This document shows, piece after piece, positions 56,337 to 62,089 of a stretch of DNA of 64,000 bases (within the stretch, counting starts at the first letter, position 1; every line of letters starts with the position of its first letter). Made by a program: the position numbers and the translations under genes. A model generated the notes under the pieces. It saw nothing but the letters and a program-made list of their open reading frames with translations, did not search any database and was not told where the DNA came from. This stretch comes from an endosymbiont of unidentified scaly snail isolate Monju (GTDB lineage Bacteria > Pseudomonadota > Gammaproteobacteria > Chromatiales > Chromatiaceae): positions 2,108,001-2,172,000 of the forward strand of contig NZ_AP012978.1 of the NCBI RefSeq assembly GCF_000801295.1, read 5' to 3'.

Positions 56337-59300
56337 ATGGAACGCATCCGAGAGATCCCCTACAACTACACCTCCTTCTCCGACCGCGAGATCGTCATCC
56401 GCTACCTGGGTGAGGCTAACTGGCAGCTCATCGAGCGGCTGCGCGGCAGCCGTCGCACCGGGCGTTCGGCACGCATGCTGTTCGAGGTGCTGGGCGACAT
56501 GTGGGTGGTCGAGCGCAATCCCTACCTGCAGGATGACCTGATCGACAACGTCGAGCGGCGCAACGCGCTGATCGAGGCACTGGCACACCGCCTGCGCCAG
56601 TTCGAGGCGCGGCTGAACGACAACGCCGATGCTGCCCGCCTGCTCGAGGCCGCGCGCGAGGCGGTGGACCGCTTCGCCAACTGCTTCGGTGAGCGCGCCC
56701 AGCTGCGCGCCCGGGTGCGCAAGGCGCTGGCCAAGGTCACCCGGCGCGACAACATCGATTTCTCGGGCCTGGCGCGGGTCTCGCACGCCACCGACGCCAC
56801 CGACTGGCGGGTGGAGATGCCCTTCGTGGTGATCTCGCCAGACACCGAAGAAGAGGTCGCGCCCGTGGTGCAGGCCTGCATCGACTGCGGTCTGAGCCTG
56901 ATTCCGCGCGGCGGCGGCACCGGCTATACCGGCTCGGCAGTGCCACTGGACGCGCACTGCGCAGTGATCAACACCGAGAAGCTGGAGTTCCTCTCCGACG
57001 TGGAATACATCGAGCTGCCCGGGGTGGAAGGCACTGTGCCCACGGTACGCGCCGGCGCAGGCGTGGTCACCCGCCGGGTCTCCGAACTGGCCGAGCGCCA
57101 CGGCCTGGCCTTCGCGGTCGATCCCACCTCGCAGGACGCCTCGACCATCGGCGGCAATATCGCCATGAACGCCGGCGGCAAGAAGGCGGTGCTCTGGGGC
57201 ACCACGCTCGACAACCTGGCGAGCTGGCGCATGGTCACCCCACAGGGTGACTGGCTGGAGGTCACCCGGCTGGAACACAACCTGGGCAAGATCCACGAAC
57301 AGGAAACCGTGCGCTTCTCGCTGCAACGCTACGCGCCCGACGGTCACACTCCGCGTGGCGAGCCCGAACTGCTGGAGATGCCCGGCAGCGTCTTCCGCAA
57401 GGCCGGCCTGGGCAAGGATGTCACCGACAAGTTCCTCGCCGGCCTGCCCGGCGTGCAGAAAGAAGGCTGCGACGGCCTGATCACCTCGGCACGCTTCATC
57501 CTGCACCGCATGCCCGCGCACGTGCGCACCGTCTGCCTGGAGTTCTTCGGCGACGACCTGGCCCGCGCGGTGCCGGCCATCGTCGAGATCACCGACTTCA
57601 TCGAGGCCACCGAGGGCGTGCAGATCGCGGGGCTGGAGCATCTCGACGAACGCTACGTCAAGGCGGTGCGCTACAGCACCAAGGCACCGCGCCGCGAGCG
57701 GCCCAAGATGGTGCTGATCGCCGATCTCGTGAGCGACGACGAGGCCCTGCTGGGGCGAACCGCCAGCGAGGTGGTGCGCCTGGCCAATGCACGCGAGGGC
57801 GAGGGCTTCATCGCCGTCGGCGCCGAGGCGCGCGCCCGTTTCTGGGCCGACCGCGCACGCACCGCGGCCATCTCGGCACACACCAACGCCTTCAAGATCA
57901 ACGAGGACGTGGTGATCCCGCTCGCGCGGCTGGCCGAGTACAGCCGCGGCGTCGAGCGCATCAACATCGAGGAGTCGATCGCCAACAAGCTGGAGGTCAT
58001 CCTCGCCTTCCGCCACATCCTCAGCGAGGAGCGCCCCGAAAAGGACGAGGGCGGCATCGTCTCGGGCAAGTTCGACCTGGCCCTCGAACTGCTCGACGAC
58101 GTGGAGCACCGCTGGCAGACACTGCTCGACAGTCTCGACGAACCAGCCGCGACCATCGAGGTGCTCGATGCGGACGAGCGCGCACGCATCCGCGAGGGCG
58201 ACCGAGTGATCGACCTGCTGCTGCGCCGCGACGTGCGCGTCTCCTACCGCGGCGAGCTCAAACAGCCGCTGCGCGAGATCTTCCGCGGCAGCGACTGCGA
58301 ACCGCTGCGCGAGCGCCTGCGCGCCACGCACGCCGAGATCAAGAACGAGCGCCTGTTCGTGGCCCTGCACATGCACGCCGGTGACGGCAACGTGCACACC
58401 AACATCCCGGTGCATTCCGACAACTACCGCATGCTGCACCGCGCCGAGCGCATCGTCGACCGCATCATGGCACTGGCACAGTCACTTGACGGGGTGATTT
58501 CCGGCGAACACGGCATCGGGCTCACCAAGATCCACTACCTCGAACCCGAAAAGCTCGCCGCCTTCGTCGAGTACAAGCAACGGGTCGATCCCGAGCAGCG
58601 TTTCAACCCCGGCAAGCTGATGCCCGGCTCCGGGCTGGAGGGCGCCTACACGCCCTCGCTGCGCCTGGTGCAGCAGGAGGCGCTGATCCTCGAGCAGAGC
58701 GAGCTGGGCGCGCTCAACGACGCCATCCGGCACTGCCTGCGCTGTGGCAAATGCAAGCCGAAGTGCATGACCCACGTGCCGCGCGCCAACCTGCTGTACT
58801 CGCCACGCAACAAGATCCTCGGCACCGGACTGGTGATCGAGGCCTTCCTGTACGAAGAGCAGACCCGACGCGGCATATCGGCACTGCACTTCGAGGAGAT
58901 GAACGACATCGCCGACCACTGCACCGTATGCCACAAATGCCAGCCGCCCTGCCCGGTGGACATCGACTTCGGCGATGTCACGGTGCACATGCGCAAGGTG
59001 CTCGAACAGGCCGGAAAGAAGCGCTTCAACCCGGGTACCTGGGCGGCCATGCAGTTCCTCAACGCCACCCGTCCCAGCACCATCAAGGCGCTGCGCAAGG
59101 GCATGCTGGAGTGGGGATTCAAGGGCATCAACCTGGCCTACGGTCTGGCCAGGAAGACCGGCCTGCTGCGCCGCAACGCCACCCTGCCCGCAGCCACCAC
59201 CGGACGCCCCAGGCCAGTCGAGATCGCCATCGAGCTGGTGCGCCGGCCGATCCGCGTGGAACTGCCGAAGCGCAGCTACCGCACCGAACTGGGGCTGGAA

Positions 59301-60143
59301 GATCCGACCCATGTCCCTGTGATCCGCGATCCCGCGCGCGCCGACGAGGACGCCGAAGCAGTGTTCTACTTCCCCGGCTGCGGCTCCGAGCGCCTGTTCT
59401 CCGATGTCGGTCTCGCCACCCTGGCCATGCTCTGGGAAGTTGGCGCCCAGACCGTGCTGCCTCCCGGCTACCTGTGCTGCGGCTATCCGCAGACCGCCGC
59501 CGGCTTGCACGAGAAGGGCCAGCGCATCACCACCGACAACCGGGTGCTGTTCCACCGCGTGGCCAACACCCTCAACTATCTCGACATCCGTACCGTGCTG
59601 GTCTCTTGCGGCACCTGCATCGACCAGCTCATGAAGTACGAATTCGAAAAGATCTTCCCCGGCTGCCGCCTGCTCGACATCCATGAATACCTGATGGAGA
59701 AGGGCGTGAGCACCCAGAATGCACCAGGCGTGCAGTATCTCTACCACGATCCCTGCCACACCCCCATGAAGCAACACGACCCGGTGGAGGTCGCGGCCAG
59801 CCTGTTGCAGACCGAGGTCCGGCTGTCCGACCGCTGCTGCGGCGAGGCCGGCACCCTGGGTACCGCGCGCCCCGACATCGCCAACCAGCTGCGCTTCCGC
59901 AAGAGCGAGGAACTGCGCGCCGGTATCCGCGAACTGACCGGGCACGAACGGGCCGAGGGACAGGTCAAGCTGCTCACCAGCTGCCCCGCCTGCCAGCAGG
60001 GCCTGGCCCGTTACGCCGACGAGACCGGCCTGAAGACCGACTACATCGTGGTCGAGCTGGCGCGCGCCCGCCTGGGCGAGGACTGGCAGCGGACCTTCAT
60101 TGAACGAGCAAAGGCCGGGGGCATCGAGCGTATCCTGCTGTAG
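56337..60143 (+). CDS. Large FAD/4Fe-4S D-2-hydroxyacid dehydrogenase (DUF3683 type)
   Basis: A 1268-aa fused oxidoreductase. An N-terminal DUF3683 region (about 1-150) starts [21 protein letters not shown] GlcD-like FAD domain follows ([16 protein letters not shown] at about 190-205, to [14 protein letters not shown] at about 720-735). Then come two 4Fe-4S sites, [13 protein letters not shown] and [13 protein letters not shown], and a GlcF-like half with CCG motifs: [42 protein letters not shown]. The lineup matches D-lactate, glycolate or D-2-hydroxyglutarate dehydrogenases that feed quinones. No signal peptide or TM, so it is membrane-peripheral at most. Confidence 0.9.
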
Positions 60144-60287
60144 CAGGCCCGTCCCCGGGTCGAACCGTTCGCGGCGGGGACGCCGCTCCCGCCGCAGGAG
60201 GCCCGTCTCCAGGCCGAACCATTCGCGACGGGGACGTCGCTCCTACCCGTAGGAGGCCCGTCCCCGGGCCGAACCATTCACCGCAGC
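60144..60287. repeat. Tandem array of GGGA-hairpin repeats
   Basis: Starts on the base after the stop codon. Alternating inverted units: GCAGGCCCGTCCCCGGGTCG (60142-60162), GCGGCGGGGACGCCGCTCCC (60171-60190), AGGAGGCCCGTCTCCAGGCC (60197-60216), GCGACGGGGACGTCGCTCCT (60225-60244) and AGGAGGCCCGTCCCCGGGCC (60251-60270). Two unit types, GGCCCG and GCGGCG, each fold around GGGA or TCCC. The remainder to 60362 shows no gene. Confidence 0.85.
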
Positions 60288-60362: not shown

Positions 60363-60980
60363 ATGATCTCCGCTCTCGAAGCCCTGCAGAAACTCCGGGA
60401 AGGCAACGCCCGTTTCGTCGCCGGTCAGGCGCAAACCCCCGCGCTGAGCTGTGCCGACCGCCGGCAGTCACTGACCAGCGGCCAGACGCCCTTTGCCATC
60501 ATCCTCGGCTGCTCGGATTCACGAGTACCCGCCGAGATCGTGTTCGACCAGGGCCTGGGCGACCTGTTCGTGATCCGCGTGGCGGGCAACATCGTGGCCC
60601 CCTCGCAGGTCGGCAGCATCGAGTTCGCCGCCGAGCGTTTCGGCACGCCGCTGGTGGTGGTCCTGGGCCATTCGCAATGCGGCGCCATCTGCGCCACCAT
60701 CGAGGAACTGGAACGCCCCGCGGAGAACCGCTCCCCCAACCTGCGCGCCATCGTCGATCGCGTGCGCCCCTCGGTAGAACCTCTGATGGACACCGAGCTG
60801 CGCAATGACCGCGACCGCCTGATCGACCGCGCGGTACACGCCAACATCCGCGCCGCGGTCAATCAGCTACAGCATGGCTCGGCCATCCTTGAACGCCTGA
60901 TCGCCGAGGAGCGCCTGATGGTAGTTGGTGCTCACTATTCTCTGGAGACCGGCGAAGTCAGCTTCGATACGCCGGATTGA
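60363..60980 (+). CDS. Beta-class carbonic anhydrase
   Basis: A zinc enzyme of 205 aa that interconverts CO2 and bicarbonate. Zinc ligands are visible in ILGCSDSRVPAEIVFDQ (Cys, with Asp-Arg dyad) and VVLGHSQCGAICATIEEL (His and Cys). VIRVAGNIVAPSQVGSIEFA links them. No signal peptide, so cytoplasmic; it may feed bicarbonate to carboxylases such as AccC or a CO2-fixing cycle. It stands alone, 219 bp of repeats before it. Which beta subgroup it belongs to is not settled here. Confidence 0.95.
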   Translation: MISALEALQKLREGNARFVAGQAQTPALSCADRRQSLTSGQTPFAIILGCSDSRVPAEIVFDQGLGDLFVIRVAGNIVAPSQVGSIEFAAERFGTPLVVVLGHSQCGAICATIEELERPAENRSPNLRAIVDRVRPSVEPLMDTELRNDRDRLIDRAVHANIRAAVNQLQHGSAILERLIAEERLMVVGAHYSLETGEVSFDTPD

Positions 60981-61104
60981 GCGCCAACCAGGGGGTGCGG
61001 CTCCCCTCCCTGAGACATCAGGGATATCTATGCCCGCATCATTGAACCTTATTGGCAACCTAATGTCAGAGTATTCGGATGCACTGATATTAAGGAGGTA
61101 TGCC

Positions 61105-61554
61105 ATGAGCAGCCTGATACCGAACTTCCCGCCGAATGGCGTGGTCACCATCAACCGGGTGATCCTGAAACCGGGATACACGATCGACGACCTCCAGGAG
61201 CGCGTGGCGCTGCTGTGCGAGAACGTCAAGACATACCATTCCGAGACCGGTTTCGTCGGCGGCTTCGTGGCACTCAACAGTGGGCAGATCTCCAACGAGG
61301 GGTCGACCGTGGGCCAGGCCGTGGAGAGCCCGCTGAAGGACCGCGAGGCCCTGATCGTGACCTTCTGGCGCAGCTTCGAGGACCACGAACGCTCGCACCG
61401 CAGCGACACCTTCCAACCGCTGTTCCGCGACGTGCTCGAACTGTGCGAGAACGGCAACGAGGAGATCGCCTATCAGATGCTCTGGTCCGGCGCGGCCTAC
61501 TCGCCCGAAGAGGCCCGTGCCGCACGCGAAGCCAAGGAACGTTACGCGGCCTGA
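61105..61554 (+). CDS. Half-length sulfur-oxygenase-reductase-like ferredoxin-fold protein
   Basis: A 149-aa soluble protein that looks like an antibiotic-biosynthesis-monooxygenase (ABM) type alpha-beta domain. Closer reading suggests SOR: LIVTFWRSFEDHERSHRSDT resembles the SOR segment TFWKDWKDHEEMHRQN. His94 and His98 (HxxxH) would match SOR iron ligands His86 and His90, Glu119 or Glu120 would match Glu114, and Cys38 lies 56 residues before His94 as SOR Cys31 lies 55 before His86. Those SOR numbers are recalled for the Acidianus enzyme. SOR is about 310 aa. AAGGAGG precedes the ATG by 6 bases. A terminator follows, then a sulfur-globule-like gene. The enzyme activity is unproven. Confidence 0.55.
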   Translation: MSSLIPNFPPNGVVTINRVILKPGYTIDDLQERVALLCENVKTYHSETGFVGGFVALNSGQISNEGSTVGQAVESPLKDREALIVTFWRSFEDHERSHRSDTFQPLFRDVLELCENGNEEIAYQMLWSGAAYSPEEARAAREAKERYAA

Positions 61555-61602
61555 GTGGTCTGACAGGCGATCGCTCTCCCATCCCTCCATAGCGATGGCG
61601 TT

Positions 61603-61629
61603 GCCCCCTCAGTTCGAGGGGGCTTTTTT
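61603..61629 (+). terminator. Rho-independent terminator after the SOR-like gene
   Basis: GCCCCCTC-AGTTC-GAGGGGGC, an 8-bp perfect stem and 5-base loop, followed by six T. It isolates the SOR-like gene from the promoter of the next gene. Confidence 0.95.
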
Positions 61630-61665
61630 CGTTCCGGAACCAATTCCCCCGGGCAGACTCCGGTA

Positions 61666-61693
61666 TTGACATTTAAGAAATTGCTTATATACT
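61666..61693 (+). promoter_or_regulatory. Strong sigma-70 promoter of the sulfur-globule-like gene
   Basis: TTGACA (61666-61671, perfect -35), a 16-base AT-rich spacer, TATACT (61688-61693). It is the best consensus promoter in the window and lies 72 bp before the ATG, in a locally AT-rich patch of a GC-rich genome. High expression is expected, as for a structural protein. Confidence 0.88.
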
Positions 61694-61765
61694 TTCGGGC
61701 ATCGACGAGCTGTACCGGTCGAACCAGACACGCAATCGTTCGCACAAAAGAATCCGGAGAGAATC

Positions 61766-62089
61766 ATGAAAAAGATCATCGCCATCGCTGCCATCATCGC
61801 TTCCGCCCAGGCCTCTGCCTTCTGGGGCTGGGACAACAGCAACAACGCTACCGACGGCCGCTACAACGGCAAGGGTGACTTCAACGGCAACGCTACCGGC
61901 GAGGCCGAGGCCACCTTCAGCATGACCTTCACCGGCAAGGGCAAGACCCGCGGCGATTTCAAGGGCAACGGCGACAGCAACAGCAACTGGGCCGCCTATG
62001 GCTACGATGCCCCCTACTACTACGGCTACACGCCCTATGCCGCATCCGTCACCCCGGTGACTGCCCCTGCGCAACCGGCTGCCCAGTAA
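61766..62089 (+). CDS. Sulfur-globule-protein-like secreted Gly/Asn/Tyr-rich protein
   Basis: A 107-aa protein with a signal peptide (MKKIIAIAAIIASAQASA, cleavage after ASA). The mature part is repetitive and low in charge: FWGWDNSNNATDGRYNGKGD, FNGNATGEAEATFSMTFTGK, GDFKGNGDSNSN, then YGYDAPYYYGYTPYA and an alanine/proline tail. This composition and the FWG...N-rich...FSMTFTGKG order match the sulfur globule proteins of purple sulfur bacteria, which coat periplasmic sulfur granules. The start is supported by GGAGAG 6 bases upstream. Other periplasmic low-complexity proteins cannot be excluded. Confidence 0.65.
   Translation: MKKIIAIAAIIASAQASAFWGWDNSNNATDGRYNGKGDFNGNATGEAEATFSMTFTGKGKTRGDFKGNGDSNSNWAAYGYDAPYYYGYTPYAASVTPVTAPAQPAAQ

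Follow-up and report, generated by a model that had tools for sequence, protein, structure and literature searches.

The window analysed here is a stretch of 64,000 nucleotides from an endosymbiont of unidentified scaly snail isolate Monju (contig NZ_AP012978.1, positions 2,108,001 to 2,172,000 of the forward strand). The gene of interest lies between a carbonic anhydrase gene and a sulfur-globule protein gene, sgp (Table 1). It opens with ATG and encodes a protein, P0001, in which C38 and C114 are the only cysteines. The residues that a first-pass annotation had likened to the active site of sulfur oxygenase reductase (SOR) are present in this open reading frame (C38, H94, H98 and E119/E120) and at the spacing described, with 56 residues separating C38 from H94 and 22 separating H98 from E120. 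The downstream gene, which had been described as sulfur-globule-like, matches PF17228 well above the Pfam cut-off (E 1.8e-20, 74 bits, cut-off 26.7). A terminator and a strong promoter had also been placed between the two genes. Both patterns exist, but their frequency in the region is near the chance level (3 terminator-like stems found against 2.9 expected, and 1 promoter-like site against 0.4). The genome is a single contig of 2.6 Mb, with one copy of the half-length gene at E 0.001 and with both dsrA and soxB. No canonical SOR was detected in it at E 0.01, a search in which the control genomes were equally silent. Further upstream, the intergenic DNA ahead of the carbonic anhydrase gene (60140-60279) is a tandem repeat of period 54 (2.6 copies, 83% matches), and positions 56337-60143 encode a 1268-aa fused FAD-oxidase, Fe-S and CCG-domain protein whose ends are DUF3683 and DUF3400.

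Table 1. Features at and around the half-length gene, given as positions in the window.
Feature	Position	Strand	Basis or remark
Carbonic anhydrase gene, PF00484, upstream	60363..60980	+	Pfam; not widely conserved as neighbour
Likely ribosome-binding site, AAGGAGGT	61092..61099	+	Read from sequence; about 7-14 bases before ATG
Half-length SOR-related protein gene, 149 aa, subfamily A (protein P0001)	61105..61554	+	ORF, conservation, alignments
Cys38 codon; residue aligns with the essential cysteine of SOR (Cys31, Acidianus/Sulfurisphaera numbering)	61216..61218	+	Invariant; hhalign and MAFFT
His94 codon; residue aligns with His86, an iron ligand of SOR	61384..61386	+	Invariant; hhalign and MAFFT
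His98 codon; residue aligns with His90, an iron ligand of SOR	61396..61398	+	Invariant; hhalign and MAFFT
Cys114 codon; residue aligns with Cys101 of SOR	61444..61446	+	MAFFT; Cys in 35/39 members, not universal
Glu120 codon; residue aligns with Glu114, an iron ligand of SOR	61462..61464	+	MAFFT yes; hhalign no
Terminator-like hairpin, then T6	61603..61623	+	Pattern; near chance level
Promoter-like site TTGACA-16-TATACT before sgp	61666..61693	+	Pattern; 11/12 matches
Sulfur-globule protein gene (sgp), 107 aa, PF17228	61766..62089	+	Pfam; adjacency kept only within genus

The first-pass annotation had proposed a search for half-length homologues, and this uncovered a large conserved family, with relatives encoded at 396 loci in a scan of one genome per species. 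The best 80 of the 396 loci were retained; these are 77-95% identical, all are Pseudomonadota by record title, and they include Thioalkalivibrio, Thiobacillus, Sedimenticola, Thiogranum, Thiodiazotropha, Halochromatium and one Magnetovibrio MAG. Homologues are 148-154 aa long, with a divergent member of 184 aa (L013), the equal length being partly by construction because the start codon nearest the expected place was picked for each. C38, H94, H98 and E120 are identical in 93/93 aligned sequences, comprising the window and 92 loci (L001, identical to the window, was dropped, and several genomes appear twice). They are also identical in 39/39 chosen members drawn from subfamilies A and B and the phage copies, down to 33% identity. 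Conservation on this scale excludes the chance presence of the four residues. Twenty-two columns are invariant in the 39 members, and neither E119 nor C114 is among them. Since E119 varies outside subfamily A, E120 is the candidate ligand.

Subfamily A carries a C-terminal tail. Subfamily B, recovered in profile searches, is about 126-140 aa long, lacks the tail and is about 33-40% identical to P0001. In a tree of 100 rows, subfamily A was split from subfamily B and the phage copies with support of 100/100, in a run whose bootstrap had not settled. Searches of plasmids and INPHARED phages gave no family match, P0001 had no match in PHROGs, and a literature search found no description of this family. 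In some loci the tail (residues about 114-149) recurs, singly or doubly, in short ORFs that closely follow the gene, and in four genomes a tail-like piece is found away from the full copy, one with an internal stop. The tail pieces comprise L042 8544-8774, L081 8451-8813, L102 1387-1611, L140 near 2540, G458:C1:1688495-1688611, G659:C1:8481-8615 and G636:C35:31536-31628.

Carriers of the gene were then compared with genomes encoding sulfur oxidation. Among 274 sampled genomes of the window's class, the half-length family was found in 56 (53 clear), soxB in 116 and dsrA in 93, the latter two counted at E 1e-50 (112 and 87 above curated cut-offs) and with a dsrA model that mixes oxidative and reductive types. 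Nearly all clear carriers contained dsrA or soxB (52/53) and most contained dsrA (47/53). Viewed from the other side, a clear copy is present in 47/93 dsrA genomes, 5/34 genomes with soxB only and 1/147 with neither; this lone exception, G821, is 55% complete. Three weak or partial matches (G802, G659, G780) fall outside the clear set, and including them 55/56 carriers have dsrA or soxB. Fisher's test gives p of about 1e-19 to 1e-20, which overstates the evidence because genomes of the same class are related. The clear carriers are spread over 40 families, and dsrA also occurs in 36 of these; it accompanies both subfamilies (A 34/38, B 16/18). In a wider draw from the phylum, the family was matched in 9/398 genomes.

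Once frames overlapping the gene itself are removed, the most widespread neighbour cluster reaches 21 of 81 bacterial loci, at positions from -7.4 to +8.0 kb, and the next reaches 15. Most clusters are Thioalkalivibrio or Thiobacillus groups, in a clustering for which ORF calling was crude in high-GC DNA. The first large clusters obtained (77, 73, 51 and 24 loci) were mostly frames overlapping the gene, and no operon partner was named. Twelve subfamily-B loci had common neighbours only in small sets. As for sgp, tblastn at E 1e-4 placed it near the half-length gene in 3/80 named loci (L014, L016, L069), all from the window's genus; 74 of the 80 loci have at least 900 bases downstream, and the low-complexity query can miss divergent copies. 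The sulfur-globule neighbour is therefore real but lineage-specific. Its product was rejected as a functional partner, and the sulfur-storage and oxidation locus put forward in the first-pass annotation reduces to a local arrangement.

Subfamily-B copies were also found on 38 distinct viral contigs in two scans of IMG/VR, several of them near-identical and therefore representing fewer lineages. The C, HxxxH, E pattern is kept on 37 of these contigs, the remaining one being a fragment. Tail, baseplate, SSB or DnaB genes occur on the same stretch in five of nine contigs examined (L222, L224, L227, L232, L240), while PHROG matches were less telling for L217, L226 and L233 and absent among the five proteins scanned from L228. 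Hallmark genes on the contig and intact active-site residues mark the gene, in subfamily B only, as a phage auxiliary metabolic gene. In the tree, 21/24 phage copies cluster together (support 83/90), and those of L217/L226 and L233 fall outside this group.

A closer inspection of the phage gene neighbourhoods revealed a DsrC gene on 8/38 contigs, starting about 0.4-1.3 kb upstream of the half-length gene. The DsrC of L224 matches PF04358 (E 2.6e-24) and the others were identified by tblastn. Counting the L224 query itself, seven copies share 96-100% identity with it, and the eighth, from L232, is 83% identical, which suggests two or three lineages. IscU-like genes are present on 4/38 contigs, with Pfam confirmation for L226 alone, and IscA-like genes, named from a C-terminal CGCG motif, on 14/38. 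A gene resembling a Rieske-type oxygenase alpha subunit is found on 9/38 (L221, L222, L227, L229, L231, L236, L238, L239, L240). This gene lies downstream of the half-length gene in eight cases and upstream in L239, and matches PF00848 in L222 (E 1.9e-6), the others resting on tblastn. At least one of the five partners sought is present on 22/38 contigs, many of which are short. Of the phage partner queries only DsrC matched a bacterial locus, once (L210, 31% identity); the IscU and IscA queries gave no match in 216 bacterial loci with flanks of 1.5-10 kb. Sulfur-oxidation genes such as dsrC, dsrA, soxYZ, soxC and soxD are known from phages, and the half-length gene resembles them in being phage-borne and in lying near dsrC on some contigs. 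Kieft et al. describe phages that carry dsrA, dsrC/tusE and sox genes, often with nifU, iscA and grxD in the vicinity, and the word 'oxygenase' is absent, and no sulfur oxygenase named, in the available text of that paper (PMC8190135). Likewise, the available part of Roux et al. names phoH, 2OG-Fe(II) oxygenase, tctA and dsrC, the 2OG-Fe(II) gene being the only oxygenase among them and no sulfur oxygenase being named (PMC4164917). The half-length gene differs from the listed phage sulfur genes in this respect.

The kinship to SOR, an enzyme that forms a 24-mer hollow sphere and disproportionates sulfur with O2, was assessed at several levels. As a single sequence, P0001 scores 14.3 bits against Pfam SOR (PF07682, cut-off 25), 18.8 bits against NCBIfam SulOxRed (NF047630, E 6.6e-4, cut-off 400) and 14.8 bits against ABM (PF03992, cut-off 23.1), and is thus below all three curated cut-offs. 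Among 27 members of set A2, at E up to 10, Pfam SOR was matched by 24 (best 3.9e-4) and SulOxRed by 17 (best 4.2e-4). The mostly phage set A4 matched af470-like monooxygenase (15/21, best 3.1e-3), haem-containing dehydratase (7/21) and SOR (6/21). Profile searches against all PDB chains gave a clearer picture. With the broadest profile, A5, the ten best matches were all SORs (best E 4.2e-5; about 0.001 for the aligned stretch alone), only SORs fell below E 0.1, and the first ABM-type entry was IsdI at 0.55. The A2 profile, built from both subfamilies, returned SORs as its first seven matches (best E 7.3e-5), followed by GlnK1 at 0.038. With the narrower A1 profile, triosephosphate isomerase (0.046) came close to SOR (0.012), a result that was not relied on, and with the subfamily-B and phage profile A4 nine SORs ranked first, but at E 0.16.

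Comparison with a set of 12 SOR sequences taken from genomes located this kinship in the N-terminal half of SOR. In hhalign the family scored 52.7 bits against whole SOR and 52.1 bits (probability 95%) against the N-terminal half, compared with 15.5 bits for both the C-terminal half and reversed SOR, and with a maximum of 23.5 bits over 60 column shuffles of whole SOR. This alignment places C38 on the SOR cysteine and HxxxH on the iron histidines, leaving E120 unaligned and pairing ELC stretches instead. In all three MAFFT modes, the columns of C38, F50, G60, T86, W88, H94, H98 and E120 are identical in 39/39 half-length members and 12/12 SORs. According to the available text of PMC7398979, SOR binds iron through His86, His90 and Glu114, alanine mutants of these residues and of Cys31 are inactive, mutants of Cys101 and Cys104 lose activity about tenfold, and the SOR monomer is an eight-stranded barrel. 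Relative to SOR (PDB 6m35, 2cb2), the half-length family therefore matches Cys31 and all three iron ligands, keeps the T and W, and mostly keeps the second cysteine, Cys101. However, its members are about 130-150 aa long, whereas SOR is about 310 aa with two fused repeats; they lack the second repeat and the Cys101/Cys104 pair and score below the curated cut-offs. These differences rule out SOR proper, which the first-pass annotation had raised as a possibility, while the proposed kinship, the half length and the match of ligands and cysteine all stand. Judged by sequence, P0001 has a single repeat that is related to the N-terminal half of SOR, the catalytic one, and the family is best called single-repeat and SOR-related and not filed as SOR.

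AlphaFold2 modelled P0001 with a pLDDT of 90.3 and a pTM of 0.81 (best of five models, the others at 73-85) and a phage copy with 87.0 and 0.76. The predicted models contain the beta-alpha-beta-beta-alpha-beta ferredoxin-like unit of the dimeric alpha+beta barrel fold, in line with the barrel suggested at first pass. In the P0001 model, His94 and His98 lie in a helix (91-98) following the TFW strand, Glu120 is on the next strand (119-124) and Cys38 is in the first helix (27-45). The best Foldseek matches were the dimeric alpha+beta barrels SnoaB, FasU, IsdG and methylmuconolactone isomerase (E about 1e-6). SOR was not among the best 50 of 1,539 or the best 50 of 1,591 PDB matches, which were ABM/EthD/IsdG-type and similar barrels, and a search of BFVD gave nothing informative. 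The Foldseek result fits the predicted fold class and alone does not favour SOR. Proteins of the ABM/EthD/IsdG type (PF03992 and relatives) are alike in predicted fold and in size. The half-length family has an invariant HxxxH, Glu and Cys set, which ABM proteins are not known to carry, and its profile scores to them are weaker than to SOR.

Sequence comparison and counts establish a conserved family, related to the N-terminal half of SOR, associated with genomes that have dsr or sox genes and carried by phages, in some cases beside dsrC. Its product is best read as a putative non-haem-iron sulfur or persulfide oxygenase, or a sulfur-handling protein, of Dsr-type sulfur oxidisers. The iron-ligand residues, the SOR-like cysteine, the sulfur-oxidising carriers and the proximity of dsrC in phages point to zero-valent sulfur as the likely substrate. 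As each half-length chain has one ferredoxin-like unit, two chains would need to pair to form one eight-stranded alpha+beta barrel. Each chain may then hold a mononuclear non-haem iron on His94, His98 and Glu120. Polysulfide, or a cytoplasmic persulfide carrier such as DsrC or TusA, would supply zero-valent sulfur for Cys38 to bind in persulfide form, and iron and O2 would oxidise it to sulfite and/or thiosulfate. The protein could thereby act alongside the reverse-Dsr (or sHdr) route, trimming or feeding the pool of sulfane sulfur in the cytoplasm, and phages of sulfur oxidisers would carry the compact form, probably keeping the oxidation step running during infection.

We put the probability that a SOR-type iron oxygenase acting on Cys38-bound persulfide is the full explanation at roughly 0.5, which makes oxidation at iron the most likely of the readings considered. 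Several results count against it. The curated scores are sub-threshold, SOR is missing from the best 50 Foldseek matches, hhalign leaves E120 unaligned, triosephosphate isomerase and GlnK1 follow SOR closely with the narrower profiles, and the A4 set favours other families. Moreover, 46/93 dsrA genomes have no clear copy, the contigs with dsrC represent few lineages, and bacteria show no conserved operon. Some hosts live largely without O2, where an O2-dependent enzyme fits poorly.

Next in rank, though distinctly less probable, is a non-oxygenase role for the same iron and cysteine site, as a sulfane-sulfur carrier, persulfide reductase or sulfur sensor working with DsrC or TusA. The association with dsrA genomes and the phage dsrC genes suit such a role, the lack of a widely conserved neighbour is as expected for a stand-alone accessory protein, and the high identity among the best 80 loci suggests many constrained surfaces; however, the three SOR iron ligands are invariant, and a plain carrier would not need them. 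It is improbable that the protein is an ordinary alpha+beta barrel enzyme, ABM-type or haem-binding, with an organic substrate and a likeness to SOR that is only superfamily-wide. The barrels filling the best 50 Foldseek matches and the marginal Pfam matches to ABM, af470-like monooxygenase and haem-containing dehydratase are consistent with it, but the A5 search separates SORs from IsdI and the columns common to SOR include all of its iron ligands. Least probable, by a little, is an iron-supply or Fe-S assembly helper of sulfur oxidisers and their phages, which the IscU-like and IscA-like genes on phage contigs would fit, since nifU, iscA and grxD are reported as common on sulfur-gene phages generally, making proximity weak evidence (available text of PMC8190135), and the bacterial loci gave no IscU or IscA match.

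If the half-length protein does oxidise sulfur, a very common lithotrophic sulfur pathway includes a step that has gone unnoticed, and the phages carrying it influence sulfur oxidation in their hosts with one tool beyond those listed. It would also serve as a minimal model for the iron site of SOR and allow the origin of the fused SOR barrel to be tested. More tentatively, and with the odds somewhat against it, the compact single-repeat oxygenase may be a widespread and overlooked step of the Dsr pathway acting on persulfide delivered by DsrC or TusA; fused SOR may have arisen from its unfused, homodimeric state or in parallel to it, and phages may have adopted it, in some lineages jointly with dsrC, as a sulfur auxiliary gene that has gone unrecognised. 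The family-wide link to dsr and sox and the phage copies, some beside dsrC, lay beyond what the single window sequence could reveal.

SOR itself is rare in the class sample, where it exceeds the cut-off in 9/274 genomes, against 53 with a clear copy of the half-length relative. Full-length SOR coexists with the half-length gene in five of these nine SOR-bearing genomes, and also in G609 and G610. A divergent group of full-length SORs (L144, L152-L155) was observed in addition, matching Pfam SOR at E 1e-60 to 1e-64 and keeping the cysteines, HxxxH and Glu; those of L152-L155 are 33-34% identical to the SOR of L141. One of the five genomes with a divergent SOR, G720, lacks the half-length gene, and the other four (G048, G610, G636, G715) carry it.
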